A stretch of 64,000 nucleotides of DNA from Isoetes taiwanensis (taxonomy: Eukaryota > Streptophyta > Lycopodiopsida > Isoetales > Isoetaceae): contig JAJEKV010000028.1 in NCBI GenBank assembly GCA_021234155.1, forward strand, positions 12,166,134 through 12,230,133, given 5' to 3'. The notes beneath the pieces were generated by a model, which was given only the letters and a program-made list of their open reading frames with translations, had not been told where the DNA came from and did not search any database. Below, one piece after another: positions 26,306 to 56,400 of this stretch. A program made the translations under genes and the position numbers. The first letter of the stretch is position 1. Each line of letters begins with the position of its first letter.

Positions 26306-29173
26306 CTTAGGCGATTCATACATGTGATACAACATTCAAACCAATGAATTTTTAGATTGGATGCACTTGACATATTGAATATAATCTAGTCCAACAGTTT
26401 CCAAAATTACCAATGGATTTGCTCTTTCCATAGTAGAGAGAAAGTACAGAAATGTAGCAAGTAGAGAATGCAACCAGTGGAAAATCGATGCCTACATAAT
26501 GTAACAAAAATTGAAAAGGGAAAATTACTTCTGGTCTATCAAGTTGAATCTGGATAGATGTGTAGGCTACAAATATACAACTTGTTGAACTGTAGTTGCT
26601 AGTTCATTTGCAGTAGATTTGCAGGTATTGCATCAATATAATCCGTCTGCAATCCACGAATACAAAACTATAGTGAATTAATAATCAAATGCATTGAGAA
26701 CATGCTCAAGATCATGAAACAAGAAAGAGACAAAATATGCACAAAGAATATGGGAAATGTGCAGCAAATGAGACTCTCCAAATATGAGATCAAACCTGAA
26801 TACATCTGAAGAGGCTCTGGTCTAATATAGTATAGACCGCAAATATGAGCCCTACATCTAGCTAAATATAAACCCGACACTTATGCTATCCTAAACATGC
26901 CAAGTATCGTCTGCCACCACTGACATGCCAAGTGTCGTCTGCCACCACTGACACCTAGCATGTGCACAATGTTAACCACTAGGTGGTTAACATCAGAACT
27001 GTCTGCTCGGAAAAATCTATGTTCTAGGAGCTATAGATGTCCAATCTGGCTAATTTAATGTGCTAATCTATCTAAAATATTGTTGGGCGATTTTTGGTCA
27101 AATTTGGATCAAACATGGTCAAACCGAGTTACTCTACGCAAAAGGATTTTTTGAGACCATCGGAAAGACGTTTGGCGTGAATGATCTGGATGGGTCTCTT
27201 TTGGCCAATTTTTAACCTTTTTGAGTGATATAAAGTGCTACAATGCAAGTTTGCTCGATTCGAGCCTATTTACCAAGTTATTTCATGTTAATTTGACACT
27301 TTGAATCCAAAAATGAGCAAACCGGGTTACTCTGCGCAAAAGGGTTTCCGAGACTCTCAGAAAGGCATTTGGCGCGGAGTGACTCGGGTCACTTTTTCTG
27401 ACCTACTTTTACTTTCTTTTCAAGGAAATTTGAACTCATTACACTAAGTAAGAGATTTTAGTACATCCAGAGTAAAAAATTTATACAGAAAGCTCTAATT
27501 TTTATCCCTTTTAATTCTTCATGCAGGTCCTTGGACATGACCGTAACTCTTTTGGTGTGAATTGTGCATAGGTTGCCCCCCTCAAAGAGCAGCACCAGCT
27601 GCCTTCACCGCTTCCCGCATGATCGACCGTCATGGATGTAATCGATAGTCTCAAGATAAACTCTTGCATGATCTCTGAGGAGCCGCCTAAGGGCGCTCTT
27701 CCGAATCAAGAGGTTAGTGCACCGCTGGAAGTGCCTAATCTCTCGGCGACCCTTTGACATGGAGTTGGGCCCTTGGTGGACCCTTTTTTATGCTACTGGC
27801 CGAGGTAGAGGGGGCTTTGGTTGATTCTTTGGCCCCGCCACCCTTCACGAACCGGACGCTCTCGCTTAAAGTACCTAATCGCTGTACCGACCGTCCCGTC
27901 AGCTGGAAAGTAGACCTCAAAAGTCAGCCTTTCTTCCTTTCAAACTCAAGATCGTGGCTTGAGCTTGAAGGGTCTCTCTCCCACCTTCTTGATTTGATTA
28001 CCTTCTGGCTTGTGCCACTTTGAATAAGGTACCGGCATTGGGGTCCGATGTCTCCCCACTTCTTCTTCTTGCTCTTCTTCTCCATCTCCTCCCTCGACCT
28101 CCTCTTCATCTTGCTCCTCGTCCTCCTCCTCTTTGTTGGGTGATGTGCTCATGAGGTTCTTTGATATGGACAAATTCCCGTGATTACGTCGCCCTATCCT
28201 TAGTTCTCTCCCGTGGCCTCTCCCTTCTTTCTCTCTCCTCTCTTTCCTCCTCCCATTCTCTTATCTTCTCGTTCCCCTTCCTCTCCTTGAAGGCCCCTCC
28301 ATCCGATGATGTTGTTGGTCTTCTTGTTACTGCTCTTCTTGTTGTTGCAACATCATCCTCCTCCCTCACTCCCTCGAGAACATACCCAACCGACGGTCAC
28401 AAGGGTGCATTGAGTCCTTTCGGGTGAGCTGCTTGAGGCTCGCTCGTCCGTGGTATGGTCTGTCTTGTCCGTAAAGTTTGAGGTGCTGGCCTCATCGCCC
28501 TCGCCATGCCTCGGCCTTAGATGCTCAGGGATCTTCTTGCCACTCCCCACGGCTAGCTCTGCCATGCTGGGCCTCTTCTGGGGGCTCCTAAATTTCCTTG
28601 CGGTGCACTCGATGTTTGCCATATCTTACAGTTCAGGAAACTGATTAACTTAAGCTGGAGATTAAGAGAGAGAGAGGGTTTAGGACAAAATTAGGAAAAG
28701 AGGCTAAAATGGTGTTTAAAAAAGGAAAGATGGTCTCATGCCACGAAATATTCCGTTGCTATTATTACTCCTATTAATTAGCCACCCTTATTAATGGTTA
28801 TTCCCTTTTTATTACTATTATTTCAAATTTTCAATTTTTCTAATGGTTTGGGGTTTCAATTATGAGTTTGCGCTATTTTTCACCCGGATCTCGGATTTGG
28901 ATGATTCTTCGACCCATTTTGCGTGAAATTCAATGCCATTGCATAATTTCCACTTCACATTTATTAGAATCCTCATTTGACTCATTCTTTTCCCTTGAAT
29001 CTATAACTTAGCCAAAATCTATAATCCTGCTACTTGGGGGAAAAATATTCTACCACTTTCGAGGTTCGATGTTGGAATTCTCATTCCATACTCTACTAGG
29101 CCGGTTAATCTAATTAATCAGGGTTATGGCCAGTGCTAGCTCTTGGTCAACCAAGAACATTGCTCTGATACCA
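26306..29173 (-). mobile_element. Retrotransposon Z, 5' internal region (copy B)
   Basis: Read on the minus strand after the primer site at 29161-29173. An ATG at 28622 opens a Gag-like disordered protein (MAELAVGSGKKIPEHLRPRH). It continues through basic and acidic low-complexity segments (FKERKGNEKIREWEEEREER; DEEEVEGGDGEEEQEEE) with frame changes to about 27.7 kb. No zinc knuckle, protease or RT is seen. A 27-bp tandem duplication (GTCTGCCACCACTGACA twice) lies at about 26911-26955, and a pair of related ~100-bp segments at 27098-27205 and 27296-27405. Confidence 0.55.
29161..29173 (-). other. Primer-binding site of Z (tRNA-iMet type)
   Basis: The plus strand TGCTCTGATACCA is the exact complement of TGGTATCAGAGCA, the usual plant tRNA-iMet primer site. 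It borders the LTR that starts TGTG at 29175. The same site in copy A (about 2848-2859) reads TGCTCGATACC, altered at the CTG. Confidence 0.85.
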
Positions 29174-29174
29174 T

Positions 29175-32100
29175 TGTGCCGCTCCCCGAAAGTATACGAT
29201 GCCTTGTCGTATACTCTACGAGAAATTCCCCATCCAGCATCATCTGCTACATGGGCCCTTCATATGCCCCGTTCTTGGGATGGCCAGGATGCGAGTAGGG
29301 AAACACGGAGGTGTCTTTTGCACCCATCTTCCTATGGGCTCCTATAACAGCAGAAGCATACTACAATATTAGCACTGGCAACAATATAACATAATCGACT
29401 ACCACGAAGGGTAGCATATCTATCCATCCATAGGTACATCAATGATAACAACATAGTGTAAGGCTCAGACTCGTAAGGGGAAAGTAGACTGACGGCTGGG
29501 CCTCAAGATAGAGCAGACCGAGATATAACAATGGCAGGGCTGGTTATAGGCAATGGCTAGGGTTGACCACTCCTTCAGCCCCTCCTGTGCATATTTTGTA
29601 GATGGGCTAAATCAGGCTCTCGCATGACTATAACCTGCCGGAGATGTAGCCTCATAGTATCACCCATTGGGGCTAGTTTGGGTTGCATCTCCCCAGTCCG
29701 ATGAGGTAGGAAGGGCTGCATCTCCCCTTCCGGAGGAATAATGTCTCCGTGGGCGACTAGAGGATCGTGATGACACATGTACGTACCCGAGAGCCAAGGG
29801 GGGTTCACCCTGAAATCCCGTATGAACCATCTGAATTATAAGAAATGGGTTATTTTTGGAGAGCTTTCGTACGAAAATATATGGAAAGGGGTGGTTTTTA
29901 TCACATTTTGCAATATTTTAAGCCTGTACATTTTCGATATGGGTATTTTTCTAGTTCTTTTGGACCGTATACTATGGGTTTTCTTGCTACCCTAGTAACA
30001 CAGATGGCATATCGATATTGTATATAGGTGAATCCCCCGGGCCGAGAGCCAGGCCGGCGCCTGCAACTCTTGAGAGTTAGGACGACACCACTGACGCAGG
30101 AAGTGTCGATCCCATACCCGGCCCACACCAAGTGACGGACTATAGGCCTAGGCCACTATGGGTCCCCAGTAGCCGTGCCCAGCAGGGACCTCCCTCCACT
30201 TTGCCACTAACTCCATTATGTGGTGCTTAGTCACTCCATAGCCCCCGTAGCTGGGTGGGCTCCTATGCAAAAGCCGCAACTAACTAATAGGAACTACGGG
30301 ATCTAAACCTTGGTTCGGGAAATTTTTTAAGCATAAAGGTCAAATTTCCTGCCACCTCCATGCTCCCACTCAATTCCTGCCAAAGAAATCACTATTTTTA
30401 GCAGAAAATTTTCCTGCTATCTCAAAACTGTAGTGTGAATTTTCAGACTTACACGGTAGCTTACAAGGGTTCCGGGGAATTTCCCGAACCAAGGATCTAT
30501 GTGGGGTGTGGAGTCATAAAGAACCCAAAATATACTAGCATATGCCCCGAAGTTGATCGACAGTATACATGAAGATCGTGCAAGCACACCTAAGTCAAAA
30601 ACCAAGGAAGGCACTCCAGGCAGTCAAGGGAAGAACATCAGACGCGGGGAGCTAATCTACGCGACACACTCGACCAGGAGCACCCACAAACCAAACAATG
30701 CAAGCACACGCATTGAGAGGAACGCCGACGCCATGCAAAATAATCCACGAACACACCATGTGCAAGCACCAAACGGGAGTGGGAGAGGGAACCGACTCAC
30801 GGAAAACTCGAGAGGGTTACAAGATAAAGCCATACAACACGCACTCACCCCCAAAAGGATCCATCACAGCCTAAGAAATCATAACCAAACTCGACTCGCA
30901 AAACCAAGACTAAACCGACCCGACTACTGTGATGATGCTAGATGGGCCAAAGATGTAATCATTCTCTAACCACATCGGACCCTAATGGTCCCAAACTTTC
31001 CCCCCGAACCGGGAGGTCAAAGGAAGTGGGACCTTCTCCCTTTGATCGCTAAGAAGCCACACTCTGCACCAAAGGGCCAATATGCCTCCCTTTCTCCCGA
31101 TGAGGGAAGGGCGATTATGTTAAGGTGACAGACGTCACCAAACTATATGACCTAAGGCATCGTCACTTTGCCCTCCTCCCTTAAAGATGAGGGGCTACCA
31201 TGTTAAGGCACTTGAAGCTTGTACTACCCTTTTTTTTTTTTTTTTTTTTCCTTACCCCCCCTAATGCCCTTGCCCTCTAATGCCATGCACGACACATGTA
31301 CGGGAAAGGAAAAGGACATTAAGGCACAAAAGGGAGGTGCGGGATTCATACCTCCAAAGACCCCAAATACATCGATGGACCCACACAAAGCATGGGCCAA
31401 TAGTGGGAAAAATGCGAAAATATACCCCATATGGGGTGACAATGGGAAACACCCTTCCCAAGGGAGGCAAGGAAAATACTAGTCCACCAAATAATTTTTC
31501 ATTTTTTTTTTTTTTTTTTTTTCGCCACCTCACCTGATAGGCACCTGCCACGTGCCTCTGGACCCCTGCCACGTGTCCCCATAAGCTCAAGATAGGTGGG
31601 GCCAACAATTCCAGCACACACGTGGCACCAATAAAACCACACATGTGGTAACCACCCCACATGTGGCTTTGACCAAAGGTCTTATCAAATGAGAACACAA
31701 ATGGGGGTTTGAACCGCCCCCATTATGACAACAACTCTTTATCATTAGTACCTTATGCCAAATTGACAAGGGTACCTTTTCGAAAAATCCCCCCAATCTT
31801 GGTTGTTGCCATATATTGTAGCTGCATCCCCAAGTTCTTCAATGTTTCCCCAAATTTGGAGGATCATCCCTATTGATTCCATCTTCAATTTTCCATGACC
31901 GGATCAGCCATGAATTCCGAGATTGTTCCCCCCAAAAGCCCCGTCAAAATGAGCTTCTAGTGGGCTCGATTAGCATTTCTGATCAAGGCCGAAAAACAGT
32001 CCCAAATCCGAGCCAAATCTTCTAATTGATCCCCTTAATCTTCGAATTTACTTTCAATTTTTCTTCCACATGGTCGGATCAGTGTTGCAATACTGCCCAT

Positions 32101-34222
32101 GAGGAAAGCCCCATCAAATTGTTCATTGTCTGAGCTAGATTGAAGATTTTGCCCTGTTTTCTGCCAAGAACACCAAGAACCGACCCATGTTTTCTAATTG
32201 ACCCACTTGGCCTTTGAATTAGCTTCCAATTCTTCTCCCACATGGTCGGATTAGTACTACAATACTGCCCACATGGAAAGCCCCATCAGATTTCACATAG
32301 TTTGGGCTGACTTGAAGAATTATCCCTGATTTCTATCAAGAACACCAAGAACCTGTTACAGACCTGTTTATTCACTTGATTTGGGTCTTCCTTCCGGAAT
32401 TGTACCCCTATTGTTGCCTCCTATGCTCGGATTTGATGCCCACACACATACAATTCGAAAGCCCCTTCAATTTGTCACTTAATTGGGCTTGATTAGACAA
32501 ATGGGCCTGCTGCCCCAAGCCCAAGAGCCCGAACTGCCATATCTCCCTAATACCCCCTTTTTTTGTGATTTCTTCAAGATGGGCTGCTTGAACTTGGTTA
32601 TTTGATCAGTCTAAGCATCCCTGCACCAAAAGCCCCTTCAAATTTGGCTAGATATGGGCTCAATCAAGGTCTGAACCCTGATTTCTCCAAGAACTCCTTG
32701 CCCCTTCTGATTTTCTGTAAATGGGCAGCCCCAACCTGCTCCAATCTCGATTTTGGTACTTCTTTCCATGAATCCCAGCTGCTACCTACCTCCAAATCGA
32801 CCCCATGGTTCCATTTTTGCCACCTTAAGTCTCTAGATCCACGAAAATCTCTCCAAAGGAAACAATATTACGGGGTAAAACCAACCTTTGAGAGGAGAGA
32901 CTCTAGGACCAAATTTCAGCAAGAATAGAGAGGAAACTTGAAGCTATGTCATCATCTATTCATCAAGGAAGTCCATACCTTACAATGTGGCTCGAAAATC
33001 CTTCAAAGCAGGCCCAATCCCACCTGAATCCACTCATTTGTCGGGTGAATATGCTCTGGGCTGTTCCTAGCTCCACCGACCTCTTCCTTTGCCAATACCA
33101 GCCCCAATCCCCCCAAAATCTTCAAACAAGGGGTCCTTAGGATGGATTAAGGATGGCCCATACTTGGAGGTGGCTTGATCACGAAAAATCACCTTCAAAC
33201 TGCTCCAAATCGGGCTGGAAACAGCCCCAAGAAGCTCAATAACAGTCCCCTTCATGTCCGAATCTCAAAACTCCAATAACTTGAGAAATACTTCGTCAAA
33301 TCCATCAAAAAATGGCTCTCCAGATCGGTATTGAGATGGTGCATCCTTTGGTGGCTGCTGCAGCCCAAGATCAGACTTGAAATGAGCATGGATCGACCAA
33401 GAATGGGCTGGAAAAAGCACAAAACGTGTTTCTCCCCCAAGGCGCCCAAGATGGGCGCCCAAGGGGAGGCGCCCTTGGGAATTGGGGAATTCCCGAACCA
33501 AGGATCTAAACTAGGAGCATCATCTAAATAATGGCTACTAGGTCTTTATCCCCCTTCCCAATACAAAAGGAGTAAACATGATCAACCAACATCATACATC
33601 CACATAACATGCAAAATAATGAGAATAACATCTAATCCTAATCACATGCATCTAACTTATAGTTAGGGTTCATTGATTAGGGTTTCAGATCCAGACTAGG
33701 GGTTCTAGAATAGCTCTACTAGAGATACGAAATGCTAACTCATCTGGAATAATAACTTCCAGGTGATCTACAAAGGACTCTACTCCAAATACCTGCTCAT
33801 GAGGAACTCCCTCCCGCTCCCGACGTCTCCATGGCCTGCAAATGGTTCGAAGTAGCTCCTACTCCTTCTGATGTGCACACGCTCTGGGGGCTGATTTGCT
33901 ATGCTATGCCACAATAGATGATTCTCGAAACAGAGTATAGAGCGTGAACAATGTTCCAAGACTGTTGGAGCCAAAAAAATGGCCTAGGGTTGCCATGTCA
34001 TGCCATGTGGCTCCAATTGGGTGCATCGATGTGGCGGGCGCCCAATAGGATGGGGCCATGTGGAAATGGTCCCATCCCTAAGGTTGGCTAAATTATGTAA
34101 ACAGTTTAGCCACGCTCCCTTATCCACACTCTACAGTATACAAGGCTACTAAGGTGGGCCTGTATGGTGATGTGGCCTAGAAATATGCATATTTATACTG
34201 TATATTTTAGGGGAACGTCACA
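29175..34222 (-). repeat. Z LTR with 3.2-kb insertion (copy B)
   Basis: Bounded on the left by TGTG next to the primer site and on the right by AACGTCACA (34214-34222), giving TG...CA ends on the minus strand. Subtracting the nested element (30309-33502) and one 9-bp target copy leaves about 1.84 kb. The flank beyond (34223-34585) matches that beyond copy A. Confidence 0.8.
30309..33502. mobile_element. TIR element with 9-bp TSD (copy B)
   Basis: Counterpart of the 3983-7168 insertion, 3194 bp long. The ends are cleaner here: CTTGGTTCGGGAAATT on the left and GAATTCCCGAACCAAG on the right. They are flanked by GATCTAAAC at 30300-30308 and 33503-33511. An inner copy of the right terminus, TTTCCCGAACCAAGG, lies at about 30479-30493. 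Thus 30309-30493 alone looks like a 185-bp inverted-repeat MITE at the left end of the larger element. No open frame here looks like a transposase. Confidence 0.78.
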
Positions 34223-35227: not shown

Positions 35228-35557
35228 TGGTTATAGCAGATCATCTACAAAAAGCCGGGTCCATCTTGGTGTGCTCCAGAGAGTTTTTGAAAAGATAACC
35301 TGCCCTATCATTCCACTTCGGACAAAGTTAGTATATAGTTAGATGTTAGTATATTCCACTTTCATATTTTTATTCCCTTTAAGTTCTATGTAATGGTGTT
35401 TGACATAACACATCACATCGCAGAGTGTAACTCAATTATGTTACACTAGTTTTTCAAAAGGAGTTTGGAGAAATATCCCTGAGGAAGATGATGAGGTGGA
35501 CTCAGCACAATGTCAGTCTAGATGTCGTACTCGCATGCATACATTGTGTGCCTCTCA
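35228..35557. other. Left flank of element E1
   Basis: About 330 bp before the E1 5' LTR. The last ~100 bp read, in one frame, NIPEEDDEVDSAQCQS up to the LTR junction. The five bases before the LTR are TCTCA, and those after the 3' LTR are TCTGT, so only three match. Confidence 0.4.
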
Positions 35558-37095
35558 TGTGACGCTTCCAAAGACAAGATACGCCCCGTGACGCATATTG
35601 TAATCGCCACGCCACGCCACACGCCACCCCATTGACGGTACGCCAACGGATAGCCAGGTAAGTAGCCCTAGGGGGCAACTTACTAGGAGTGTTCATATAT
35701 TATTAATGTGCACATGTGCACATTAATGAGGGCACACCTTTCCATGTTGGCATATTTTGCCACCTAGCCACTAAAGGCAAGTGGGGCCTTTCCAATTATC
35801 CCACATGCCAAATTGGGTAATTGGAAACCCTAGCCTAAACCCCCATGTCTATTTAGGGTAGGAAAACCCTAGCTTGCTAGTTTTCGCCCTTAGGGTTTTA
35901 GAGCTCGCTTTGGCTGCCCCAGAGCCAAAACCGCCTCCCGTGACGCCGCCTGCGAATTGGCGCCATCGGGCCCTCGAATTCGATCAGCTCAAAGATGGTT
36001 GAACTCAGTCGAGGAGCCACTCAAGGATCAGATTTGGTCAATTTAATAGCTTAAACCGCCTTCTAGTCATAGAATCAGTAGGTTTAGACTATTAAATTGC
36101 CCATAGTAGCTATCTAGATCTTAGATCTCGACACTAACTAAAGAACCTAACTCTATGATTAGATCTAGTTCTTTAGCTCTTCCGTGATATATTTGGATGA
36201 TGTATTTCGCGGAACTCCTTGTATTGGGAAGGGGGGTAGAGGCCCCAAAGCTTGTAGTTGATGCTCCTAGAGTAGCCTCCCCAGCACACCGTGATTCGCC
36301 CTGTACAAGAGCCACACCCGGGTTGTGGGTGAAGGGGCCGACCGGGCTAAGAAGGAGATTCATGTCCTCGATTCTTGAACCATCCCCGGTGTGTAAAGCC
36401 TACCGGGATCATTGTGACTAGGTCTGATGGCTTACCACCGAAAGTGGGTAAGGCATGGGCTCGACACCGCGGAAGTGGTGTACACTTTCCAAAGGTTCAA
36501 CACGGGCAAAGGGGCCCTCTAGTCACCTTTGAGTTAGCATGTAGATCTCTCGGAGGGAGTGATCCCTACCTGCCCCATCGGAACCGGGAGGATGAGACCT
36601 GTGAATAGCCCCTTCGCCATGCATCCGGGCTGGCTACGCCGTCCCGACACTTTTCAACCTACTCGCAAAGTGTGCACAGAGGGGCGGATGGAGTGGACAA
36701 CCCTATGCCATGTTCTTATGCCAGCCAAATCCATTGCCATGAATTCTGTCCCCAAGAACGAACTGAGACCCAAGCCGCCACCATCCTTGAGTCCGAGCCT
36801 TGGGTAGGATCCCCTATGTGATGTGCTGATCTTTGTCTATGCAGATATGAGGGGACCATCCTTCGAGATGGTCACAGATGTTGATGTATGTGCTAATCGA
36901 CATGTATGTTTACGCCCGCGCAGCTAGGTAGGCCCCGAGGGAGACGGGTAGAATGACACCTTCACTCTTCCCAATCGGTGACTCGCACGGGTGCAAAGGA
37001 TATGTGGAGGGCCTCAGACGCGATGGAGCTGGTGTGGGGAAGAACTCCTGTTTGTATACCTGTGAGTGCAACCGTGATACGAGTAGGGGACGCCA
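35558..37095 (+). repeat. E1 5' LTR
   Basis: Begins TGTGACGC, ends at about ACGCCA just before the primer site, 1538 bp. It pairs with 47098-48630 almost base for base apart from short indels. Near the start is TGTGCACATTAATG with an inverted partner (ATGTGCACATGTGCACAT, about 35707-35724). Confidence 0.9.
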
Positions 37096-37098
37096 CGC

Positions 37099-37301: not shown

Positions 37302-37558
37302 GGTCTTCATACCGCCCGGTCGCGAAAACTAACTTTTTGTTTTGAAGCGAGGCTAAGTCGTGAGACATCGAGTCAAGAACACCAAAACATGATGAATTTG
37401 AGATAAATAATGTGGTAAGGCTAATTCTAAGGTAGGAATTAGTTAGAATAGCATGTTTTAATTACCTAAAACCCTAGAATGGGAGATGAGATTCACATTT
37501 CGCTACCGGGTCGCAAAACTAAACATTAGTATTGGAACGAGGCTAAGCCGTGGAGACC
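37302..37558 (+). promoter_or_regulatory. Tandem pair of ~190-bp segments upstream of the H3-like gene
   Basis: Two related units. Core GCGAGGCTAAGTCGTGAGAC lies at 37347-37366 and CGAGGCTAAGCCGTGGAGAC at 37538-37557. Each is preceded by TTCA(C)A and then CCGGTCGC-AAAACTA. The cores are about 190 bp apart. The second is followed after about 100 bp by TATAAATAG. The same pair precedes ORF-B. They may be upstream promoter repeats; function is inferred from position. Confidence 0.6.
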
Positions 37559-37660
37559 AATAGGTAGAAAAAAGTCTGAAATAAGTATAAGTTTTAGATA
37601 AATTGGTGCCTTAGCATGTTAAACAGAGCAACTTGAGTTTTGACCTAAAATTCCCCAAGC

Positions 37661-37669
37661 TATAAATAG
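37661..37669 (+). promoter_or_regulatory. TATA box of the H3-like gene
   Basis: TATAAATAG, the strong plant TATA consensus, stands 105 bp before the ATG at 37774. The spacing suits a start site around 37690-37700 and a 75-85 base leader. It lies inside the element, 565 bp past the 5' LTR, so it points to an LTR-independent transcript. An identical box serves ORF-B. Confidence 0.65.
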
Positions 37670-37773
37670 ATGTAGAACCCCCTCATTTTTTCGGCCCAAG
37701 CCCTAGAAATCCGCTTCCCCCAATTTAGGCGATCTTTCGGGCGCTTTTATCCGATTGACGATCCGGTGAAAAC

Positions 37774-39023
37774 ATGGCCCGAACCAAACAGATCGCAGGA
37801 AGCGCCGCCTGTGCGAAACCACCAAATACCACCGAGACAGAGATCATTCGAAGATGCTTCGCGAGAGGCTCGCAAGAGGGGGATCGCTCACTTCGGACGA
37901 AGAGCAAGACACCTCCTCGATTTGATCGATGTCTTCAACCAGCCAGGTGGAGGACGAGGCCACATCACCAAACCCATGGACGAATTTAGACGAGGGAGGT
38001 GTATGAAGAAATAGAGAGGGAGATCCGCAGCAGAACAAGCGCATTATTCATGAGCAAGGAAATCCTCGGTTTGGAGCCGCCGGAGGTAGCGCGCATCTTA
38101 GAAGATTCATCAGAAGTACGAAATGCCGCGTAAGAGAAGGGAGGACAAAAAGAGGAAAAGGAAGGAGGAGGAACAAAAGACAGCAGAAGAAAAGAAGGAA
38201 GCAAAAGGGAAGTTCGTGGCTGGCATAAGGAGAACAAAGGACTGCCCGGCCAAGGAAGAGGCCAACCCCAACATTATCATCAAGGAGCCGCAACCCGACG
38301 AACCCCAAACCCTTCCGACGACTCTTCCGATGGGGACTTCAACCCTAACGCCGCAGGTGGAAGCTCTTCCAAGAATCCGTGACGAAAGCAAGAAGTACCC
38401 GAAAGCAGCCGGCACCGAAAGCAACCCCAAAGAAGACCAAGTGCGTAAGCCCCCGAAAATACCTAAGCATGGGATAGAAAGAAGCAACCACGACCACCGA
38501 AGCCTACGCCACCGATTGTGGTGAAGATTTATGAGAGAAAGATGAGGGAGCACGAGGCCTACATGAAGAAATGGGAGGCCTATAACAAATATTATGAAGA
38601 AAACAGAGTTAAGTTCATCGAGGGAGGGCTTACCAACGGCAAAGAAACCTTAAGGCCGCCACCACCGAAGCCCAAGGTTCCCAAGCCGCCACCCGTGAAG
38701 AAAGCGGATAGGAAGGAGGTAGAGAGAAGAGCGCTAAGGAGATTAGACACTTCCAAATAAGCAGCTTCGGGTCTCCTAATCCCCCGCGCCCCCCTTCGCC
38801 GGGTTGGTGCGGTGGAAGTTATGCGTGCCTATAGAACGACTTTAGAGTCACAGACGAGGCGCTGCTAGCAATGCAAGAGGCGGCTGAGGCAAAGATAGTA
38901 CAACATTTTGAAGATTCAACAGCCTGCACTATCCACGCCAAGCGGGTAACCTTGATGCGACAAGACATGAGTCTTATGACCGCATTAAGGGAGAACGCCC
39001 TTAGAAACTTTTGTTGTAAATAA
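37774..39023 (+). CDS. Histone H3-like protein encoded inside retrotransposon E1
   Basis: Begins MARTKQIAGSAACAKPP; the first six residues equal canonical H3. It ends in an H3 fold. The bases near 38715-38760 read IRHFQ after one frame change (H3 has EIRKYQ), then PFAGLVR near 38808 (H3 PFQRLVR). An unbroken 60-codon stretch follows at 38841-39023: FRVTDEALLAMQEAAEA, KIVQHFEDSTAC, TIHAKRVTLMRQDMSL, stop TAA. Between tail and fold are about 300 charged and Pro-rich residues (KRREDKKRKRKEEEQK; EHEAYMKKWEAYNKYYEEN; RPPPPKPKVPKPPPVKK). Canonical H3 has 135 residues, so this would be about 410. Loop-1 spacing looks canonical rather than CENH3-like. At least three frame breaks. Being an H3 homologue is clear; nucleosome incorporation is inference. 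Confidence 0.85.
38841..39023 (+). other. Histone-fold segment (alpha2-alpha3) of the E1 H3-like gene
   Basis: Sixty open codons with no ATG at the start. Compared with plant H3 from memory of the family, MQEAAEA matches LQEAAEA or LQEASEA, FED is identical, TIHAKRVTLM matches AIHAKRVTIM, and the D of RQDM aligns with PKDI. The end departs from H3: ALRENALRNFCCK replaces ARRIRGERA. A CENH3-like RVTLMR is present, but the loop length is that of ordinary H3. Confidence 0.88.
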
Positions 39024-39147
39024 TTAAAAATTTTGTAATATAGAGCAATTTTGTCTACTTTGATGACATAAACTTGACTAATTAGAGCAAATTAATAAGT
39101 TTTAGCTTTTATTTCAGTAAAATAGGACATTTGGGAGCCGAGACATG

Positions 39148-39409
39148 ATGTTCACAACACTGGCCGCTCGTCAAAAAAAAGTTAGGATTGAAGCGAGGCT
39201 AAGCCGTGGAGACCTCGCCCAAACTTGACCAAAACAGCTCCAAATCGACCAAATAAGGGGTCGATTCTCGCCTAATTTGATGAGCCCATCACCCTTACAC
39301 CATTAGTTTACCCAAATTGGACACCTTTAATCGAAATGGGACTGATGTTCACAGCTCAAAACCGTCAAAAACAAAAAGTTAGGATTGAAGCGAGGCAAGC
39401 CGTGAGACC
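39148..39409 (+). promoter_or_regulatory. Tandem pair of ~197-bp segments upstream of ORF-B
   Basis: Units with the core GCGAGGCTAAGCCGTGGAG (39193-39211) and GCGAGGCAAGCCGTGAGACC (about 39390-39409), each preceded by GATGTTCACA and GTTAGGATT. The spacing is about 197 bp. They match the pair before the H3-like gene, and diverged versions lie at the same place in E2 (about 59720-59790 and 59925-60000). Confidence 0.6.
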
Positions 39410-39596
39410 TCTTACCAATTCTTCACCAGACTTGTTAAAGTCACCTTCAACCCATCGTGATAGCATCTTTTAGGTAACCTAGCCTTGTTCAAGCATCTCC
39501 TATAGTCCTCAAACTCCTATTTTGACCTCGATAGGCTAGAATTACCCAACCCTAGGAAATTTTCAAGTCATCCAAAAATTAGGGTTTTCCCTTTTC

Positions 39597-39605
39597 TATA
39601 AATAG
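39597..39605 (+). promoter_or_regulatory. TATA box of ORF-B (E1)
   Basis: TATAAATAG preceded by TTAGGGTTTTCCCTTTTC, 121 bp before the ATG at 39718. The same box and preceding phrase are kept in E2 on the minus strand (59548-59540). Confidence 0.7.
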
Positions 39606-39717
39606 ACCCCTCACTTCTCGTAAAGCACCCTACAAATCTGCCCTGCCCTTTCTAGCCGATTTCCCAACTCCCCGAGGCTTTTGCAACCGCTTTGTTACCC
39701 TCTTCCGCAATTAATCA

Positions 39718-41258
39718 ATGGCAACTTCTGATTTCCAGAGATGGTGGTACAAATAGCCATGCCGCCGAGGCCGACGCCGACCAAATCTTCCAGATCTTCG
39801 TGAAGGAGGTAGACGCCCAAGCAACCTTGCACGCCGACCCCCAATATAGTAGAGTCCCGACCGAAGTTTCAAGCTAGGGTAGAACCAGCGCTAGTGCAAC
39901 TCCCCTTGTGTAGGATATTTTGTTCCTAGACAGCCCCTCTAGTAGGGCAAAGATTAGACGATGTCCCGAACATCGCCAAATACCTCACAAACAAAGCGCA
40001 CCGCGACACCGGTGCCAATGGTCCTAACCGGGCAACAGACCAAGTACTTCTTTCAACACTGCCGGGCAATCTTTTCTCACCCACCGCGTCGAACATCGTG
40101 GGGAAACCTCCATTCCCCCCATGGACGATCCATTAGCCGAAGAAGCAGTAACAACGCTCCCTCACACAAGACGCAATGGAGCAGAAGGGAAGGAAGAAGA
40201 CTCTGATGAACAGAACTGAGGAGGAGGAAGAAGATGTTGAGCTCGACCTAGCAGAGGAGCAAAATGGCAAGCCGGAGCGAGAGTGGCAAGACTTCGAAGA
40301 AGCCGGGCAGACTCTCGAGTCGCTACACCCCCAAGTTAGGCATCACAAGCCTAGCTCCCATTATAATCGGCGGTGAGGAGTTTCTGCCCTAAGCTTACAT
40401 TCAAAACCTCCCTGAGTGCAGTGGGAAAGGGAATACCGACCAAGAGTTGCCGCACCAACTCCGAAGAATGTACTTGGACGACTTCATCGTCCGAGGAGAG
40501 TCCGACTTCCCTCCAAGTAAGGGAAGCCGACACTTACACGGGAGAGTTTACCTCCGACATCCAAGCCTACAAAGAACATCAAAGCATCATGGAGGCGCAT
40601 AAGGCCGAGAACAAGCTACCGACGGAGGAAGAGTTCCTTGCTCTCCAGAACAGATGGGGATCCGCTATGCTACCTCAAACATCCTAACGGCAAGCTCGTC
40701 CGCAAAGACCTCCCCTGATAGGACAGCGACCGACCTCGAGGGGGCTTCAAAGAACAGCCAATGACTACAGTGGAGCTCACCACGTGGAGGTTGATGATTT
40801 CGAAGCGCATAATCGAAGCTGGATACCGAGTAGCCGAGGACCCATCTCGCAACGACAAAGTCATTACGCTTATTACCCGCCATTGCCGATGGATGGAAGA
40901 ATAGCGTTTATCCACCGCAAATTCACCCCCGTGAGGCGGTGGAAGGAGTATCGCCGCTGATTGCACTCTCGTGATTCGGGCAGCATGCACGGTTACCCCT
41001 TAACACCGAAAGTATGCAATCCCGGTGAAAAGAGCGGTAGCACTCGACGCCTTCGACTTCGCCATACCTTACAAAAGGCAAAGCAAGACGCCGGTGACAA
41101 AGCCTTATACCTCCCAATCGCAGAATAGAAGATTTAGCAAGAGCATTACAGGTGGATCTCCAGCCAATGTTCTAGGAACTTGGGCCATTCAAAGGGGAAC
41201 AGCCCAAGTGAAAAAGTTCCCCGAGGATAATCCATCTTACCGCATCAACAGTAAATGA
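39718..41258 (+). CDS. ORF-B, conserved protein of unknown function (E1)
   Basis: Starts MATSDFQRWWY and ends at TGA 41256-41258 after GTAQVKKFPEDNPSYRINSK. Several frame breaks. Segments that agree with the E2 copy: YLTNKA near the N-terminal third; an acidic run (EEEEDVELDLAEEQNG); IITSLAPIII-type sequence near 40345; LRRMYLDDFIVRGESDFP near 40460-40510; VREADTY; DAFDFAIPYKRQ near 41050; and the C-terminal GTAQVKKF. Agreement in protein but not exact DNA suggests past selection on coding. I recognise no known domain. It has its own TATA box and upstream repeat pair, and sits between the H3-like gene and gag. Confidence 0.6.
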
Positions 41259-41430: not shown

Positions 41431-42740
41431 ATGCAAAATAGAGGCCTCGAGCGCCAGAGAACGCATTAACCGCTGAACTTACAGGGGAACAGAGTCCGCC
41501 CAAGCCACGCCCCGCAAGAAACCCGCTTGAAGAATTTGGACAAATGACCCCGTAAGAAGAAATATCGCAAAATGAGGACGGACCTCGAAAGCGATAAAGG
41601 CTTTGCTAGCCGCACGCTGTGAGCAGTGTTCGGTGGTAACGCCAACCGCCGCAAGCATCAGCGGAGAACGTAGAGACAAGAAGAGGAGCAAGAGAGGAAG
41701 GTCCCCAGCCTTTGACTCCTCCGACTCAAGCTCGATTCGACCCGATTCGAGGAAGAAGAAGAGCGTAACCAAGTCCGAAAGCGCATCGAAAGGCGAGGAA
41801 CCACCCCGGAGGGACGACAAAGGGACACAAGAACCTCCGACTACCGTAAGAAAGTAGACTCGTGATTGGGAAATGTTTGAAGGCCAGAAGCTCGAAAGCA
41901 ATTCTCAGCGAGTAACAAAGTCGCATGGAAGCAGAGGCTTGGCTTGACGAGATGAGCCGAATACGGCAATGCCTATGGTATGAAGGATAAGGATAAAGGC
42001 AGGGTGGCAACAAATAACCCGGGAGCAAAGACGATTTGGTGGAAGGGCTATGCCAAGGCTCATGGCTTAAGCAGGATGCTTGCGTGTTCAAGAAGTTTGC
42101 TAAAGCCTTCAAGCCCATTATGTCCCAAGAGAGCACAAGTCCAAGATGATGCAAAGCAGCTTCTACAAAGTTGCAAAGAAGGCAACAAGTCAAGACAGAA
42201 ATACACAGAGGAATTTATGAGGCTAAGGTCAGATGTGCCAAAGTTAGGAGAGAAGCACGCAAAGGGAAAGCTACATTGAAGGTCCGAATGAGGAGATCCG
42301 CAAGCTTGTAAGGGCAATAAACCCAAGAACAAGATCGGGTTTGAGTCCAAGGCAATAAGTTTGCAAGGAAACAGACCTCGTATAGTGGGCGAGGCAAAGA
42401 AAGATTACCAAGATAAAGGCAAGGCAAAGAAGCGCTTCAGCCCGAGAACAGCCAAATTTCAGATCAGCCAGAGCCCCATATAGTGGCAATCAAGGGAAGC
42501 AGCAGGAGAAGAAGCAGTATCTTTCAAAGACAAACAGAAGGGTCAAACTACTCCAAAGCAAAGGCGATCCTTTCTCACAGCCATGCCCAAGGAGAAGAGA
42601 CAGAGTGCATAGAAAAGCAGCTTTTGCTTCGTGTGTTTCCAGCCAAAGCCATAGAACAAATGAACCCCCCCATATGTCATGAGTGCAAATAAGCTAGCAG
42701 AGTTGGGAGATTGGGACACTTTGATCGACGACGACGGGCG
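41431..42740 (+). pseudogene. Gag of E1
   Basis: Nucleocapsid/capsid polyprotein of the chromovirus. The start is set by comparison with E2, where it opens MYAARGLGLGEQQ. A basic, Ser-rich region (KKRSKRGRSPAFDSSDSSS, near 41680) is shared with E2 (KKRSKRRRSPSSDSSDSSSD). Later segments include KYTEEFMRLRSDVPKLGEKH (42200-42260) and a Cys/His cluster near 42620-42690 that could be a degraded zinc knuckle. Many frame changes and stops, most of them at CAG, CTG or homopolymer sites. Confidence 0.65.
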
Positions 42741-45700
42741 AGGAGGCCCGCTGACTACATTCAGGGGTGAGTGTCATATCTTTGCCGCAATAGATACAGA
42801 GCAAAGCAGAGAGCCAAGATAAAGTAATTTCCACAGTGGGGAAAGGCCAAGGCCAAGTCATTTATAGTCCTAATAGATTCAGGAAGTAGCCATAACTTTG
42901 CATCTCCCGCAATGGTTCAAATGTTGAAGTTGAAACCATTAAAGTCAAAGCCAAGGCCCGCTTGTCTTAGCAAGTGGAGCAAAGAAGGCGACGGCAGTAA
43001 AAGAATCAACTTTGACATCGACTTTGCCGGGATTAAGATCCGTGATGGGGGCGAGGTAATGGGCATCGGCAAGTACGACTTGATAATAGGTATGGAGTAC
43101 CTTGACCAGCAGGGCCATTATTGATTGTGGAAAGCGGAAGGTGACCTTCCCAACACCCGACGGCAAGATCATTGAGATAACAGTAAAGAAGTTGTTCCCA
43201 TCATGCAAAGCAGTATGTCTTCTAAACGGCCGTTCAAGTGCATCAAGAGTGAGCAGGTAGCATACATCTTCAAGCTTGAGATTAGCGAGCCGGAATTGGA
43301 AGGAAGCAAAGAAGACAAGATGCTCGCCAAGTTGCCGAGGCAAATAGCTAAGTTGATCACGAGTTCCACGATCTCTTTCCGTGATGAGATCAAGCAGCCC
43401 TCCTTATAGGGGAGTCGAAAGTGCGAGATAGCACTCGAACCGGAACAAAGCCCACAAGCAAGGCTCCATATAGAATGACAACGCAGAATTGTCTGAGCTA
43501 AAGAAGCAAGCTGCAGAGCTGCCGACCTAGGTTTCATTAGACCTAGTGTCTCGCCGCTCGAGCCTCCATTCTTTTGTCAAGAAGAAGGATGGATCTTTGA
43601 GGATGTGCATAGACTATAGACAGCTTGAATAAGCACACCATTAAGAACAAGTATGCGCCCCAAGATCGATGACTTGATGGATCAGCTTCAAGGAGCAAAG
43701 ATCTTCTCCAAAATTGACTTAAGGTCGCTATCATCATAATAAGGATAAAGGAGGAGGATATCCACAAGACCGCCTTCAGACGCCGGTATGGGCATTACGA
43801 AGTTCACAAAGGATGCCTTTCGCTTATCAAATGCCCCCGCAACGCTCATGAGGCTCATGAACGATATCTTCGTGGAGTTCCCCGACACCTTTGTGATTGT
43901 TTTCTTTGATGACATTTTGGGTGTATAGCAGATCCCTTTGAAGGGCACGCGGCAACACTTGAGAAGGGTGCTAGAGAAGTTGAGAAGACACCAGTTGTAC
44001 GCCAAGTTGTCGGCGCCACTTCGCAACAGAGAAGGTGGAATACCTTGGTCATGTGATCTCGGCAGTAGGCATCTCGACGGACCCCGCCAAGATTGAAGCA
44101 AAGTTGATTCAAAGGGTCGGGCGCCAAGAATGTGCACGAGGTCAGAAGTTTTCTGGCCTAGCAGTGGTACTACAGAAGTTCGTGAAAGAACTTTGTTAAG
44201 ATAGCAGCCCCGCTAATGCACCTAACGAGGGGCGTAGAAGGTGAAAGATTGGGTAGAGCATTGGCACAAGAAAGCCCAAAAGGGGTTTGAATTGTTGAAG
44301 GAAGCTTTAACAACAGCCCCAGCCTTTAACCCCTCGCCGGACCCGAGAAGGATAAGCTTGTAGCAACAGATGCAGTAAGATAGCTACAAAAGCGCGGCTT
44401 ATGCAAGAAGAACGGTGGTAGCCGTGATGATTCCGTGAAGATGAACGACGCCGGTGACGCCGCCACCCAACGCACGATCGTGAGTTGCTTGCAGCTTGTC
44501 GTGGCATTAAGAATATGGAGGCACTATCTCTTGGGAAGGAAGTTCCAATTGATACCCACCATCGAGCCTCCAATATGTATTCACGCAACCACACCTCAAC
44601 TGAGGCAGCGGAGATGGATGGAGTTCCTCAAGAATATGACTTTGATATAGTCTACAAGCCGGAAGCTCAATGTGGTAGCAGATGCGCTTTCAAGGCACCC
44701 CCGACAACTAGAGTGCATTGCAACGCAATTTCAACGCCTCCAAAATGACTTTGGTAAGAAGATTGAAGAGTCCTTGCCAATGGATGTGGATTTCGGGGAA
44801 GTATGGGTAAGCCTCTCTAAGGAGGCTAGAAAGCATAAAGAACGGAGGCCTTCAAGCATTATAAGAAGGAAGGCAACCCGTTATACCATAAGAACAAGTT
44901 GTGCGCACCAATCATCGGTGTAAGGAAGTTGATCCTCCATGACACGCACAACAGCCCAATAGCTGGCCATGCGGGATTCATGAAAACATATTTCAAAGCG
45001 CAGCAGCCTATTATTGGCCAGAATGAAGAAGCAAATAGCTCGCTACATCAAGGAATGTCACTATGCCGCCAGACGGCGGCGAGCAGCTTCAATTCCGTGG
45101 GCATTAGAGCCATTAGCAGTGCCAAACGCTAAGTGGGAGGTAATCAAAGATGGATTTCATCACAGACTCCCAAGAACAAATGAGAGGCAAGGATGCCTTG
45201 ATGGTAGTGGTCTACAAGTTGTCAAAGATGGCACATTTTGTGCCTTGCGTGACCACGATACACCTATGGATACAAAGAAAGCTCTTCACCAAAGAGATCT
45301 TCGTGCTTCATGGCATGCCAAGGGAGATTATCTCCCACAGATCCGGTTCATGAGTGCCTTTTGGCAAGACCTCTTTGGCGACGATCTCGACCAAGCTATC
45401 CATGAGCACGGCGTATCATCCTCGACGGATGGCCAAACGGAGCGACCAACAGATCTTAGAAGACATGCTACTAAACTATGTCCGAATAAGCAAAGTATGT
45501 GGAAGAATTCATTCACTTGGTGGAGTTTGCATACAATAGCACCAAGCAGAATCGGCCCCAAATGTCGCCATTTATGATCAATTATGGCTATCGCTGTTTA
45601 ACTCCGCATTACTTTGGCACAACCCCGTCAAAAGTAGAAGTTTCGCAGCCAGATGTTGGCCGATATGCAGCAGCTCGTGGAAGAAGTTCGAGGTTATCCG

Positions 45701-46250
45701 CTAGCAGCAAGAAGTCGCCGAAGAGCATCGCCGACAAGCATCGAACAAATGAGAGTTCAAAGTTGGAGATGATGTTTGGCTCAAGATCAAGGTAAAGCAG
45801 CGGCTCGTCAGATTGGGAATTGCAAGAAGCTTGCTCCAAGGTGGGCTGGACCCTTCTTAATAATCAAGAGAGTAGGTAATCAATCCTACAAGTTGGAATT
45901 GCCAAACACCTAAAGATTCATAAGGTCTTCCACGGAGTTTGTTGAAGAAGCATACTCCAAACCCGCACGGTCTTTGGACACTCCAACGTTGTTGGAAATG
46001 ACTCGAGGAGCAGCCGGAAATAGTTCCGTAAATGATTCTTGATAGAGCTTTTAAGAAGACAAGGAGGTCCGAATTCCTCCAAAGATTTGGTCAAGTGGAA
46101 ACACTTACCGCTGGAAGACGCCACGCGGGTACTTAAGAAAGATTTAGTAAAGCAAGACCCACAATTTATGGAGCAATGGGACGGCAAGGTCATCTCCGGA
46201 AAGAAATCGGCTCAGCATGTCGATTTGTGTAGGTTAATTCTTGTATAGAT
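42741..46250 (+). pseudogene. Pol of E1: protease, RT, RNase H, integrase, chromodomain
   Basis: Polyprotein for reverse transcription and integration. Aspartic protease with LIDSGSSHNFASP near 42870-42910 and YDLIIGMEYL near 43075-43105. RT with MCIDYRQLNKH-type sequence near 43600 (frame-broken), [19 protein letters not shown] at 43660-43720 and VFFDDIL near 43900. RNase H region 44280-44720. Integrase zinc-finger part HDTHNSPIAGHAGF near 44940-44985, core MDFITD near 45150 and DALMVVVYKLSKMAHFVP near 45193-45245. Chromodomain LVKWKHLPLEDAT near 46087-46125. The frame shifts repeatedly, so it cannot be translated as written; the indel pattern suggests this may partly be sequence error. Confidence 0.82.
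46030..46250 (+). other. C-terminal chromodomain of E1 integrase
   Basis: ILDRAFKK-type start at about 46035, then LVKWKHLPLEDAT and a C-terminal helix-like stretch DLVKQDPQFMEQWDG, with a stop after VDLCRLILV. Chromodomains on Ty3/gypsy integrases can bind modified histone H3 tails and steer integration to heterochromatin (family knowledge). The first aromatic position cannot be judged because the frame is broken there. Confidence 0.72.
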
Positions 46251-47084: not shown

Positions 47085-47097
47085 AAGGTGGGGAGAA
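47085..47097 (+). other. Polypurine tract of E1
   Basis: AAGGTGGGGAGAA directly before the TGTGACG start of the 3' LTR; this is where plus-strand synthesis is primed. E2 has AAGGGGAGAA at the same place. Confidence 0.8.
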
Positions 47098-48630
47098 TGT
47101 GACGCTCCAAAGACAAGATACGCCCCCGTGACGCACATTGTATCGCCACGCCACGCCATACACGCCACCCCGATTGACGGTACGCCAACGGATAGCCGTG
47201 TAAGTAGCCCTAGGGGGCAACTTACTAGGAGTGTTCATATATTATTAATGTGCACATGTGCACATTAATGAGGGCACACCTTCCATGTTGGCATATTTTG
47301 CCACCTAGCCACTAAAGGCAAGTGGGGCCTTTCCAATTATCCCACATGCCAAATTGGGTAATTGGAAACCCTAGCCTAAACCCCATGTCTATTTAGGGTA
47401 GGAAAACCCTAGCTTGCTAGTTTTGGCCCTTAGGGTTTTAGAGCTCGGCTTTGGCTGCCCTGAGCCAAAACCGCCCCCGACGCCGCCTGCTTAATTATGC
47501 CATCGGGCTCCGGACTTCGACACCAAAGGATGGTTGAACTCAGTCGAGGAGCCACTCAAGGATCAGGGTTTTGGTCAATTTAATAGCTTAAACCGCCTTC
47601 TAGTCATAGAATCAAGAGGTTTAGACTATTAAATTGCCCATAGTAGCTATCTAGATCTTAGATCTCGACACTAACTAAAGAACCTAACTCTATGATTAGA
47701 TCTAGTTCTTTAGCTCTTCTCGATATATTTGGATGATGTATTTCGGAACTCCTTGTATTGGGAAGGGGGTAGAGGCCCTAAAGCTTGTAGTTGATGCTCC
47801 TAGAGTAGCCTCCCTAGCACACCGTGAGATTCGGCCTGGTACAAGAGCCACACCCGGTTTGTGGGTGAAGGGGCGACCGGCTAAGAAGGAGATTCATGTC
47901 CTCGATTCTTGAACGATCCCCCGGTGTGTAAAGCCTACCGGGATCATTGTGACTAGGTCTAATGGCTTACCACTGAAAGTGCGTGGGTAAGGCATGGGCT
48001 CGACACCCTGAAGTGGTGTACACTTTCCAAAGGGGTTCAATACGGCAAAGGGCCCCTCTAGTCACCTTGAGTTAGCATGTAGATCTCTCGAGGGAGTGAT
48101 CCCTACCGCCCCCATCTGAATCCGGGAGGATGAGACCCCAGAATAGCCCCTTCGGCCATGCATCCGGGCCTGGCTACAAAGTCCCAACACTTTTCAACCT
48201 ACTCGCAGTGTGCAATGTGGAGGGGCGGATGGAGTGGACAACCCTATGCCATGTTCTTATGCCAGCCAAATCCATTGCCATGAATTCGCCCGCAACGAAT
48301 CCGAGACCCAAGCCGCCGGGCCATCCTTTGAGTCCGAGCCTGGGTAGGATCCCCATGTGATGTGCCGATCTTTGTCTATGCAGATATGAGGGACCATCCT
48401 TCGAGATGGTCACAGATGTTGATGTATGTGCTACCGACATGTATGTTTACGCTTCCAGCCTAGGTAGGCCCCGAGGGAGACGGGTAGAATGACACCTTCA
48501 CTCTCCCCACCGAGACTCGCTACGGGTGCAAAGATATGTGGAGGGCCTCAGACGCGCATGGAGCTGGTGTGGGGGAAGAACTCCTGTTTGTATACGGTGA
48601 GTGCACCGTATACGAGTAGGGGACGTCACA
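47098..48630 (+). repeat. E1 3' LTR
   Basis: TGTGACGC to GACGTCACA, 1533 bp, matching 35558-37095. It is cleaner than the 5' copy at its 3' end (ACGTCACA). The five bases after it are TCTGT. Confidence 0.9.
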
Positions 48631-49720: not shown

Positions 49721-50450
49721 ATCGTAAATTAATCCTAGCTCAATATGGCTAGGACACACATTGAAAAGCTTATCGAACATAGAAGAAAACACTAGAAAAC
49801 AATTTCACTCCAATTAAAAGCCAGTTGTTATGATTAAATAGTTGTGGAAGCCAAATGCTCCATTCACCATAAATCTTATATCAAATTCATAACATATAGA
49901 TGAATGGTACATCCAATTGCTAATCATCTATGCCACAACCAAAAAGCTATATACCAATTGTAATAGTGTAGTTTCAATAAAGATTGGTTCTCTGGTGGAG
50001 GATAATCCAAACATGGTTAGTATGCGATGTTAATGGTACTCATTGTTCAAATACATAATGTAAAAAGGTATGAAAATGTTTTTTACAGATGTTTTTAAAA
50101 GTTTTGATAAAAGAAAGGAAAAGTTTTTGAATGCCCCATTGGTTTTTGGGCAATATTTTCTTTCCCTTACAAAAGGGCATGGGATATTATTATAACATAT
50201 TAACAGAGGAGAATTCGACGAACATCCAGAGGCCGCTACATCCAGAGCAAAGGATAGCTGTTGGAGAAGCTTTATAAAAAAAAGTCCAATTGGGCAAGAC
50301 CTTTCAAGCGGGCTGGTAAGCAATATTTAGTGCACAGAGATTCAGTGATTGGTTTGGCTGGCCAGATTGCAGACACATGATGTCTGCTTTGATTCAACTA
50401 GAGCCATGAAGAATTCACCTGGATTTGGAGAGGTGTAATGAGGAGCATTT
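49721..50450. repeat. F1: flank of E2, duplicated at 61349-62080
   Basis: 730 bp ending in GGAGCATTT right before the left LTR of E2. The same 730 bp appear again inside E2 just before the right LTR. Both begin ATCGTAAATTAATCC. F1 is the genuine left flank, because its last five bases CATTT match those right of the element (63756-63760). Confidence 0.9.
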
Positions 50451-55900: not shown

Positions 55901-56400
55901 CTTTTTGCTTTCTTCGACTCCGCTCTTCGATCTCAAGCTTGAAGATGTAAGCTACTTGCTCGCTTCTTGATGCACTTGAACAGCCGCTTAGAAGACATAC
56001 ACCGCATGATGGGAACGACTTTTTACCTGCGGATCTCAATGATCTTGCCGCCGGCCGCCGGAAGGTAACTTTCCCGCTTCCACAATCAATGATGGCCCCC
56101 GCCGTCCCAAGATATTCCATTCCTATGATCAAGTCATACTTGCCAATGCCCATTACTTCCCCCCCCCGGTCAATGTTTATTCCTCGGTAAATCGATGTCG
56201 GTTGATCCTTTTGCCCGCCGGCCGCCTTTACCGCCCCACTTGCTAGAACAACGGGTTCTCGCTTCGACTTCAACGGTTTAACTTCAACATTTGCACCATT
56301 CTCGGATGCAAAATTATGGCTACTTCCTCAATCTATCGACTATGAAAGACTTGGCCTTGGCCTTCCCAACCGTGGAAATTACCTTTATACCGCTCTCTCT
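52960..56400 (-). pseudogene. Pol of E2: protease to chromodomain
   Basis: Same domain order as E1. Minus-strand landmarks: protease region 55960-56370, with YDLIIGMEYL near 56110-56145; RT about 55060-55700, with frame-broken active site near 55290; RNase H about 54530-54950; integrase zinc-finger part HDTHSGPITGHAGF near 54235-54285; core MMVVVDKLSKMAHFVP near 53975-54020; LTP-like HGMPREIIS near 53905; chromodomain and tail SAQAYRLCRLIL-type end near 52980-53240. Frames are broken by many small indels, as in E1. Confidence 0.78.

Follow-up and report, generated by a model that had tools for sequence, protein, structure and literature searches.

Chromoviruses of Isoetes taiwanensis carry a histone H3 gene of their own between the 5' LTR and gag. 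Homology, layout and high copy number show the predicted product of this first open reading frame (ORF A) to be an element-encoded histone H3, and both its tail and its fold are under purifying selection. An ancient capture of H3 that was kept for use is the most likely explanation.

H3-like loci in the window

The window, i.e., the whole stretch of 64,000 nucleotides that was analysed, holds three H3-like loci. One of them lies within element 1, which is about 13 kb long and includes the following features:

35557-37096 (+): 5' LTR (blastn, 91.8% identical to 47097-48629; K2P 0.077 over 1509 aligned sites)
37774-37803 (+): ORF A start (MARTKQ...), derived by decay from the H3 tail MARTKQTARK (the degenerate tail pattern is reached with 2 edits; the relatives have MARTKQTARK)
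37804-38729 (+, boundaries approximate): ORF A linker in broken frames, charged and proline-rich, with the segment KIYERKMREHEAYMKKWEAYNKYYEENR (alignment with L073)
38730-39020 (+, start approximate): H3 fold of ORF A, alphaN to alpha3 (PF00125; H3 in PDB; tblastn with host H3 and retro-H3)
39718-40491 (+, the end being that of the L063 match): ORF B (MATSDF...), broken (alignment with L063, 79% nucleotide identity over 37361-40491)
41812-43442 (+): gag and protease, broken (tblastn with L018 gag; RVP_2 22.8 bits, cut-off 20.3; weak Retrotrans_gag)
43361-46245 (+): reverse transcriptase (RT), RNase H, integrase and chromodomain region, broken (tblastn with L041 pol and the integrase end of L043)
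47097-48629 (+): 3' LTR (blastn pair of 35557-37096; K2P 0.077)

The 62-codon open stretch 38835-39020 (+) matches the histone profile PF00125 with 48.1 bits (E 1.7e-12, cut-off 26.4). Its translation also matches H3 chains of known structure, at best with E 7e-11 in an alignment that covers chain residues 82-132; nearly all of the best 60 PDB matches are H3, with one CENP-A homologue (cnp1) included. The initial annotation had placed an H3-like gene between the 5' LTR and gag, starting with MARTKQ and keeping the H3 order of helices, and had proposed a search against H3 profiles. The profile match at 38835-39020 bears out this H3 assignment, MARTKQ sits within a 76-codon frame (37759-37989) between the 5' LTR and gag, and IRHFQ and the later helices follow in H3 order in neighbouring frames. 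The proposed linker of about 300 residues between tail and fold agrees with the 304-336 residues found in 11 intact frames of relatives. Speaking of a gene is justified for the family, which has intact frames, but not for the window copy: its ORF A is disrupted by stops and frame changes, and therefore it is a remnant.

Over 37361-39080 element 1 is 89.8% identical to its relative L073. Its protease match is above the cut-off, while those of gag, RNase H, integrase and chromodomain are weak (RT_RNaseH, Integrase_H2C2 and Chromo in the pol region fall below their cut-offs, with 17.2 bits against 25.1 for the chromodomain profile PF00385). The open reading frame of ORF B in L063 covers 262 aa and is cut by the end of the locus. 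When the 62-aa fold piece was modelled alone, a single long helix was predicted (pTM 0.39; mean pLDDT between 82.7 and 43.0 across five models), and this uninformative result was set aside.

The two further H3-like loci were located by tblastn at 27745-27524 (-) and 60525-60148 (-). They correspond to a second ORF A remnant and to the ORF A of another element on the minus strand (element 3):

27450-28621 (-): second ORF A remnant (MANIECTARK..., REIRHFQ...LCTIHTKRVTVMSKD; host H3 tblastn E 7.9e-12 at 27745-27524)
49721-52052 (-): LTR of element 3 (K2P 0.076, 2295 aligned sites)
53006-57649 (-): gag-pol of element 3 (tblastn with L018 gag and L041/L043 pol)
60032-61323 (-): ORF A of element 3, broken (83.7% identical to L064; host H3 tblastn E 4.2e-4)
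61349-63693 (-): the other LTR of element 3, paired with 49721-52052

No LTR pair for the second remnant was found within 14000-35500, and no gag-pol was recognised beside it, as there was no pol match nearby. One further locus, L082, has a start similar to that of this remnant, placed after MARTKQTARK. ORF A of element 3 aligns with L064, an open frame of 467 codons, from position 393 onward, leaving the L064 tail codons unaligned. Global alignment of the two indel-rich LTR pairs of the window gave K2P values of 0.077 and 0.076 with gaps mostly of 1-3 bp, so ordinary decay suffices to explain them, and assembly errors were dropped as an explanation. A target-site repeat was established for neither pair. 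The pol of the window elements is 34-36% identical to lineage II pol (see below). Apart from elements 1 and 3, the window holds at 9881-10688 (+) a reverse transcriptase fragment that is related to both of them, with no H3 locus found near it, and two adjoining 172-bp direct repeats with 76% identity occupy 32001-32344.

Copies across the genome and structure of the elements

We searched the Isoetes taiwanensis assembly (1,658,258,908 bases in 1,110 contigs); all counts given here are pattern or profile matches, not elements. The PF00125 search, ranked by H3 score, yielded 8,705 first-look candidates, 150 of which were scored, all above the cut-off. Fifteen of these match from the profile start in the manner of host H3. 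The other 135 are not host-type; the median length of their open frames is 242 codons, with 36 reaching at least 400. The search with the last 62 residues of the window copy, ranked by likeness to them, yielded 6,950 first-look candidates, and again all of the 150 scored ones matched.

Tail-bearing loci were assembled from 20 loci of the 62-residue search and 14 picked for long frames. In each of these 34 loci (L044-L077, L044 being the window copy; no frame filter was applied) a tail start lies within 5 edits of the pattern; 17 have no edits, the other half being damaged. Sixteen frames of 390-476 codons were found, and 11 of them run in frame from tail to fold. In the remaining five, entry is from a different frame; three of these have 0 edits in the tail DNA and two have 3. 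The 11 intact ORFs start with MARTKQTARK exactly (nine), MAQTKQTARK (one) or MARTKQTARV (one) and have the same layout: the tail, a charged linker of 304-336 residues and the H3 fold, which is recognised by PF00125 in 11/11 (best E 1.4e-28). These samples lean towards intact, H3-like copies.

Tail residues 1-9 (ARTKQTARK) are thus kept in this group, but a linker stands in place of the direct junction of tail and fold in H3. The residue after K9 is never serine in the 11 intact ORFs, and no K14, K27 or K36 contexts of H3 were recognised by eye in the linkers. The fold (11 cores) is 49-58% identical to host H3 and carries R63P, F84V and K122Q; its loop 1 has the same length as in host H3 (ungapped alignments). 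For the L073 fold, each of the 60 top PDB hits bears the name H3, and the best 60 matches of another PDB search were likewise H3 chains.

A pattern allowing any coding of MARTKQTARK has 1,051 matches in the genome, host H3 genes included, and the reversed pattern has none. Among the first 100 listed of these matches, 55 distinct synonymous codings occur. The K9R version of the tail, just one transition away from K9, is found 10 times. Six further tail matches, picked for differing codings, all have H3-fold motifs downstream (1.4 kb each), four with a longer fold stretch and two with a short HAKRVT only. All three of those scanned score above the PF00125 cut-off (E 5.2e-21, 5.1e-24 and 1.7e-8). 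The linkers of these six look unlike those of the window group. L078 and L081 represent another tail-bearing lineage, the fold of which is identical to host H3 at 44 of 90 positions (loop 1 of L078 is DFDPNKRVTND). With L078/L081, the putative H3-bearing superfamily extends beyond the two groups described here. At G000 C217:120970-132589 (-), three identical H3-tail codings are spaced by about 5.8 kb and may be either tandem element genes or host H3 genes.

The second group, which we divide into lineages I-IV, has a fold much closer to that of the host. We fetched 30 of the 135 non-host rows of the PF00125 search and recovered 29 retro cores (none from L020), of which 28 were counted (L017 is incomplete). 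These 28 cores share 81-89% identity with host H3, and 60 of 97 positions do not vary; since the search was ranked by H3 score, they lean canonical. PF00125 matches the fold with E down to 1.2e-43. The fold is preceded by an N-terminal part of 303-362 residues starting with MARTKG, MANTK, MPRFK, MSRFK, METPK, METVK, MEPVK or MEEVK. As most of the tail has been lost in lineages I-IV, the exact tail is not essential for all members. No convincing Pfam or PDB match was obtained for the first 200 residues of this ORF A (best PDB E 1.3), and ORF A of L014 (lineage I) has no relative among viral contigs and plasmids. A K9-to-P reading of the tail remnant was dropped, as the TGGK motif aligns equally well with two H3 sites. 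No sign of a common origin of this N-terminal domain (A1) and ORF A of the other group (A5) was found: hhalign aligned only the first 7 residues, with a probability of 0.1%.

Across host H3, lineages I-IV and the tail-bearing group, 31 of 89 fold positions are unchanged, including R69, R72, R83, C110, H113, K115-T118 and D123. We take R69, R72, R83 and R116-T118 to contact DNA in nucleosome structures, and C110, H113 and D123 presumably lie at the H3-H3' interface.

The PF00125 score and the recurrence across the genome exclude a chance match. Misassembly with a host gene, raised in the initial annotation as a possible objection, is excluded as well, because related genes recur on many contigs. 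An assembly artefact or fusion with a host gene, for which we found no supporting evidence, has a negligible probability given that both searches and the pattern count place related loci on many contigs, and that these have linkers in common and gag adjoining.

A complete element of about 13.0 kb (L018/L039) has LTRs that are 98.3% identical (K2P 0.016) and is flanked at both ends by the 5-bp repeat GCCTC, a target-site duplication; its ORF A is interrupted. Gag, aspartyl protease, RT, RNase H and integrase were detected with Pfam in Ty3/gypsy order (L018, L041, L042, L043), and a chromodomain at the integrase C-terminus scores above the PF00385 cut-off of 25.1 in L043 (34.1 bits) and L039 (34.4 bits). 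Lineages I and IV have a chromodomain above the cut-off, II and IV have RT and RNase H domains, II and III integrase domains. The H3-bearing elements are Ty3/gypsy chromoviruses. Matches to the gag zinc knuckle are below the cut-off.

The plant chromoviruses as presented in PMC3605345 (Tekay, Reina, Galadriel, CRM) have the same LTRs, gag-PR-RT-RNase H-integrase order and C-terminal chromodomain. Unlike them, the elements described here accommodate two or three further ORFs after the 5' LTR and before gag, the H3 gene being the first; the main text of PMC3605345 does not contain the phrase "additional ORF". Read by eye against the definition given in that paper, the chromodomain of our elements lacks aromatic cage residues 1 and 3 and has a group II look. 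Without these two residues, classical recognition of K9me by the integrase chromodomain is not to be expected.

ORF B gave no convincing match in a Pfam scan and a PDB profile search (best PDB E 0.11). A third accessory ORF before gag, ORF C, codes for about 170 aa (DANDHLWQIFYALRRLFNLLIISPT) and gave no convincing Pfam or PDB match either (best PDB E 0.034). Among six copies, identity to the first one is 63-82%. ORF C copies include:

L013:2094-2591 (-): ORF C
L018:6749-7261 (+): ORF C
L043:1898-2407 (+): ORF C

Selection and origin of ORF A

Selection in the tail-bearing group was evaluated on the 11 of 16 frames of at least 390 codons that pass the tail filter (55 pairs). Pooled dN/dS is lowest in tail codons 1-10 (0.029; pS 0.559, pN 0.029), followed by the fold with 0.072 and the linker with 0.242, the synonymous differences amounting to 0.56-0.62 per site. 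In lineages I-IV, the fold has dN/dS of 0.007-0.159 (17 within-lineage pairs, 12 full-length ORFs), and the N-terminal part 0.066-0.225 in 16 pairs, being undefined in one. The tail and fold of ORF A are thus under purifying selection.

These values bear on the possibility that ORF A is passive cargo, a functionless H3 fragment amplified together with the element. Such a situation has a precedent in Dothideomycete fungi, where, according to the account in PMC6710886, hAT DNA transposons captured histone H3 and reached tens to hundreds of copies: many hAT-H3 copies of Pyrenophora tritici-repentis are described as potentially active, and those in six Mycosphaerellaceae genomes as cargo inactivated by RIP. 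Both cases concern mobile elements with a multicopy H3 coding sequence, but in contrast to the fungal case reported there, our elements are LTR retrotransposons with RT and integrase, their H3 is split by a linker, and it is under purifying selection. Many copies of ORF A are broken, the window copy included, as would be expected of cargo; nevertheless, dN/dS of tail and fold far below 1 at high synonymous divergence and the ratio of 1,051 K9 to 10 K9R matches make this explanation very improbable.

We propose that an ancestral chromovirus captured a host H3 gene. In the tail-bearing group ARTKQTARK would have stayed N-terminal and the fold C-terminal, with the linker of 304-336 residues coming between them, and in the sister group the N-terminal part of 303-362 residues would have come to precede the fold. 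ORF B is homologous between both groups (hhalign 96.7%, E 3.7e-10, 191 columns, in a single comparison and not as a database E-value), which favours a single ancestral ORF A-B cassette. An unrooted tree of the folds supports the tail-bearing group with 100/100 and lineages I-IV with 60/71 and cannot tell one capture from two; few fold changes are common to both groups.

Two separate captures, lineages I-IV deriving from canonical H3 and the tail-bearing group from another variant, perhaps CENH3, would be compatible with any function of ORF A. The separation of the groups in the tree and the small number of common fold changes agree with this scenario. So do the motifs REIRHFQ, LIPRAPF and VTLMRQD of the tail-bearing fold, which resemble plant CENH3. 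Loop 1 of CENH3 is longer than that of H3. In the tail-bearing folds its length is canonical instead, every one of the 60 top PDB hits of the L073 fold is an H3, and the homology of ORF B between the groups also speaks against independent captures. We consider two captures rather unlikely, though deserving attention, and a centromeric origin was not adopted in view of the loop 1 length.

In all six cross-lineage pairs of four elements (L014, L016, L033/L042, L036/L043) gag dS is 0.67-0.80, while fold dS in cross-lineage comparisons of the same elements is at least 1.9 or undefined and ORF B dS is undefined in every pair. In a blastn comparison of L016 (lineage II) with L018 (lineage I), the LTR, the H3 fold and the ORF C-gag side align but the rest of ORF A-B does not. 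ORF A-B of lineages I-IV appears to be at or near synonymous saturation, unlike gag of the same elements, which suggests either that cassettes were exchanged between elements or that the accessory genes change very rapidly. Contrary to a sharp contrast between ORF A-B and gag, some gag pairs have dS of 1.9, and 1.76 is reached within lineage I.

Possible role in host chromatin

The element-encoded H3 probably acts in chromatin. As the DNA-contact and H3-H3' residues, with the roles that we assume for them, are unchanged, the protein could plausibly pair with H4 and bind DNA; normal entry into nucleosomes is not certain, since the tail-bearing fold shares no more than 49-58% identity with that of the host and carries R63P, F84V and K122Q. 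We infer that the ORF A fold would pair with host H4 and reach chromatin via the H3 chaperone pathway, the long linker serving as a leash that would present the K4/K9 tail, devoid of S10, to host writers and readers. Element products could be anchored to chromatin in this way, or marks could be altered where the element sits or integrates. Phosphorylation of S10 normally ejects K9me readers, and the absence of S10 would remove this phosphorylation. Direct reading of K9me by the element's own integrase is an unlikely route, as its chromodomain lacks aromatic residues 1 and 3.

We tentatively suggest that the element H3 and host H4 are deposited together, with a preference for chromatin of the element or of its target, and that the leashed K4/K9 tail of this H3, which lacks S10, would take over the way in which the host reads H3. 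Incorporation into nucleosomes or H3-H4 tetramers, by which the element may escape or steer silencing, is ranked above a soluble decoy. A soluble mimic would act outside nucleosomes, its tail titrating or recruiting readers and writers of H3K4/K9 and its fold ensuring nuclear import and chaperone binding. It would account for the lowest dN/dS of the three regions in the tail (0.03), the retention of K9 (1,051 matches vs 10 of K9R) and the divergence of the tail-bearing fold (49-58% identity), but not for the strong constraint on the residues presumed to contact DNA and H3', nor for the near-canonical fold which lineages I-IV retain without the exact tail. We regard this possibility as unlikely.

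Still less probable is packaging, with the fold compacting element RNA or cDNA within element particles or holding the pre-integration complex on chromatin. The position of ORF A upstream of gag in the same element and the highly charged linker are suggestive of it; however, an exact ARTKQTARK tail would be unneeded for this purpose, and gag already has a zinc knuckle (matches below the cut-off).

Histones encoded by parasites are not without precedent. Bracoviruses encode an H4 with an extended tail, and giant viruses encode histones; these too are core histones of a parasite, and the extended tail of bracovirus H4 adds to the likeness. Their carriers are DNA viruses of animals and protists, not retroelements, and lack the split of tail and fold by a long linker. 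Ogre/Tat elements of the Ty3/gypsy type also have an ORF between the 5' LTR and gag; it is not known to encode a histone, and these elements are not known to have a chromodomain. Influenza NS1 is a histone-tail mimic with an ARTK/ARSK-like motif; in such mimics a tail is copied in a parasite protein that has no histone fold, whereas here nine exact residues are combined with a histone fold.

We know of no reverse-transcribing element with a maintained histone gene. The initial annotation knew of no described retrotransposon family with an H3 gene, and no retroelement encoding a histone was found in the open-access PMC literature, at the level of titles and abstract starts. The word "histone" is absent from the main text of the Isoetes taiwanensis genome paper (PMC8566536).

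Overall, our results suggest that the H3-encoding element may use its own histone to deal with host chromatin. Plants silence retrotransposons largely via marks on the H3 tail. Here the usual view is reversed: the parasite supplies its own histone, with tail and fold strongly selected. With this family one can ask directly whether histones are a means by which transposons fight or steer chromatin silencing; it is also a natural experiment on which parts of H3 are sufficient (K4 and K9 without S10), and perhaps a source of tools for placing chromatin marks. If the deposition reading is true, the element would write part of its own chromatin state, beyond obeying that of the host.
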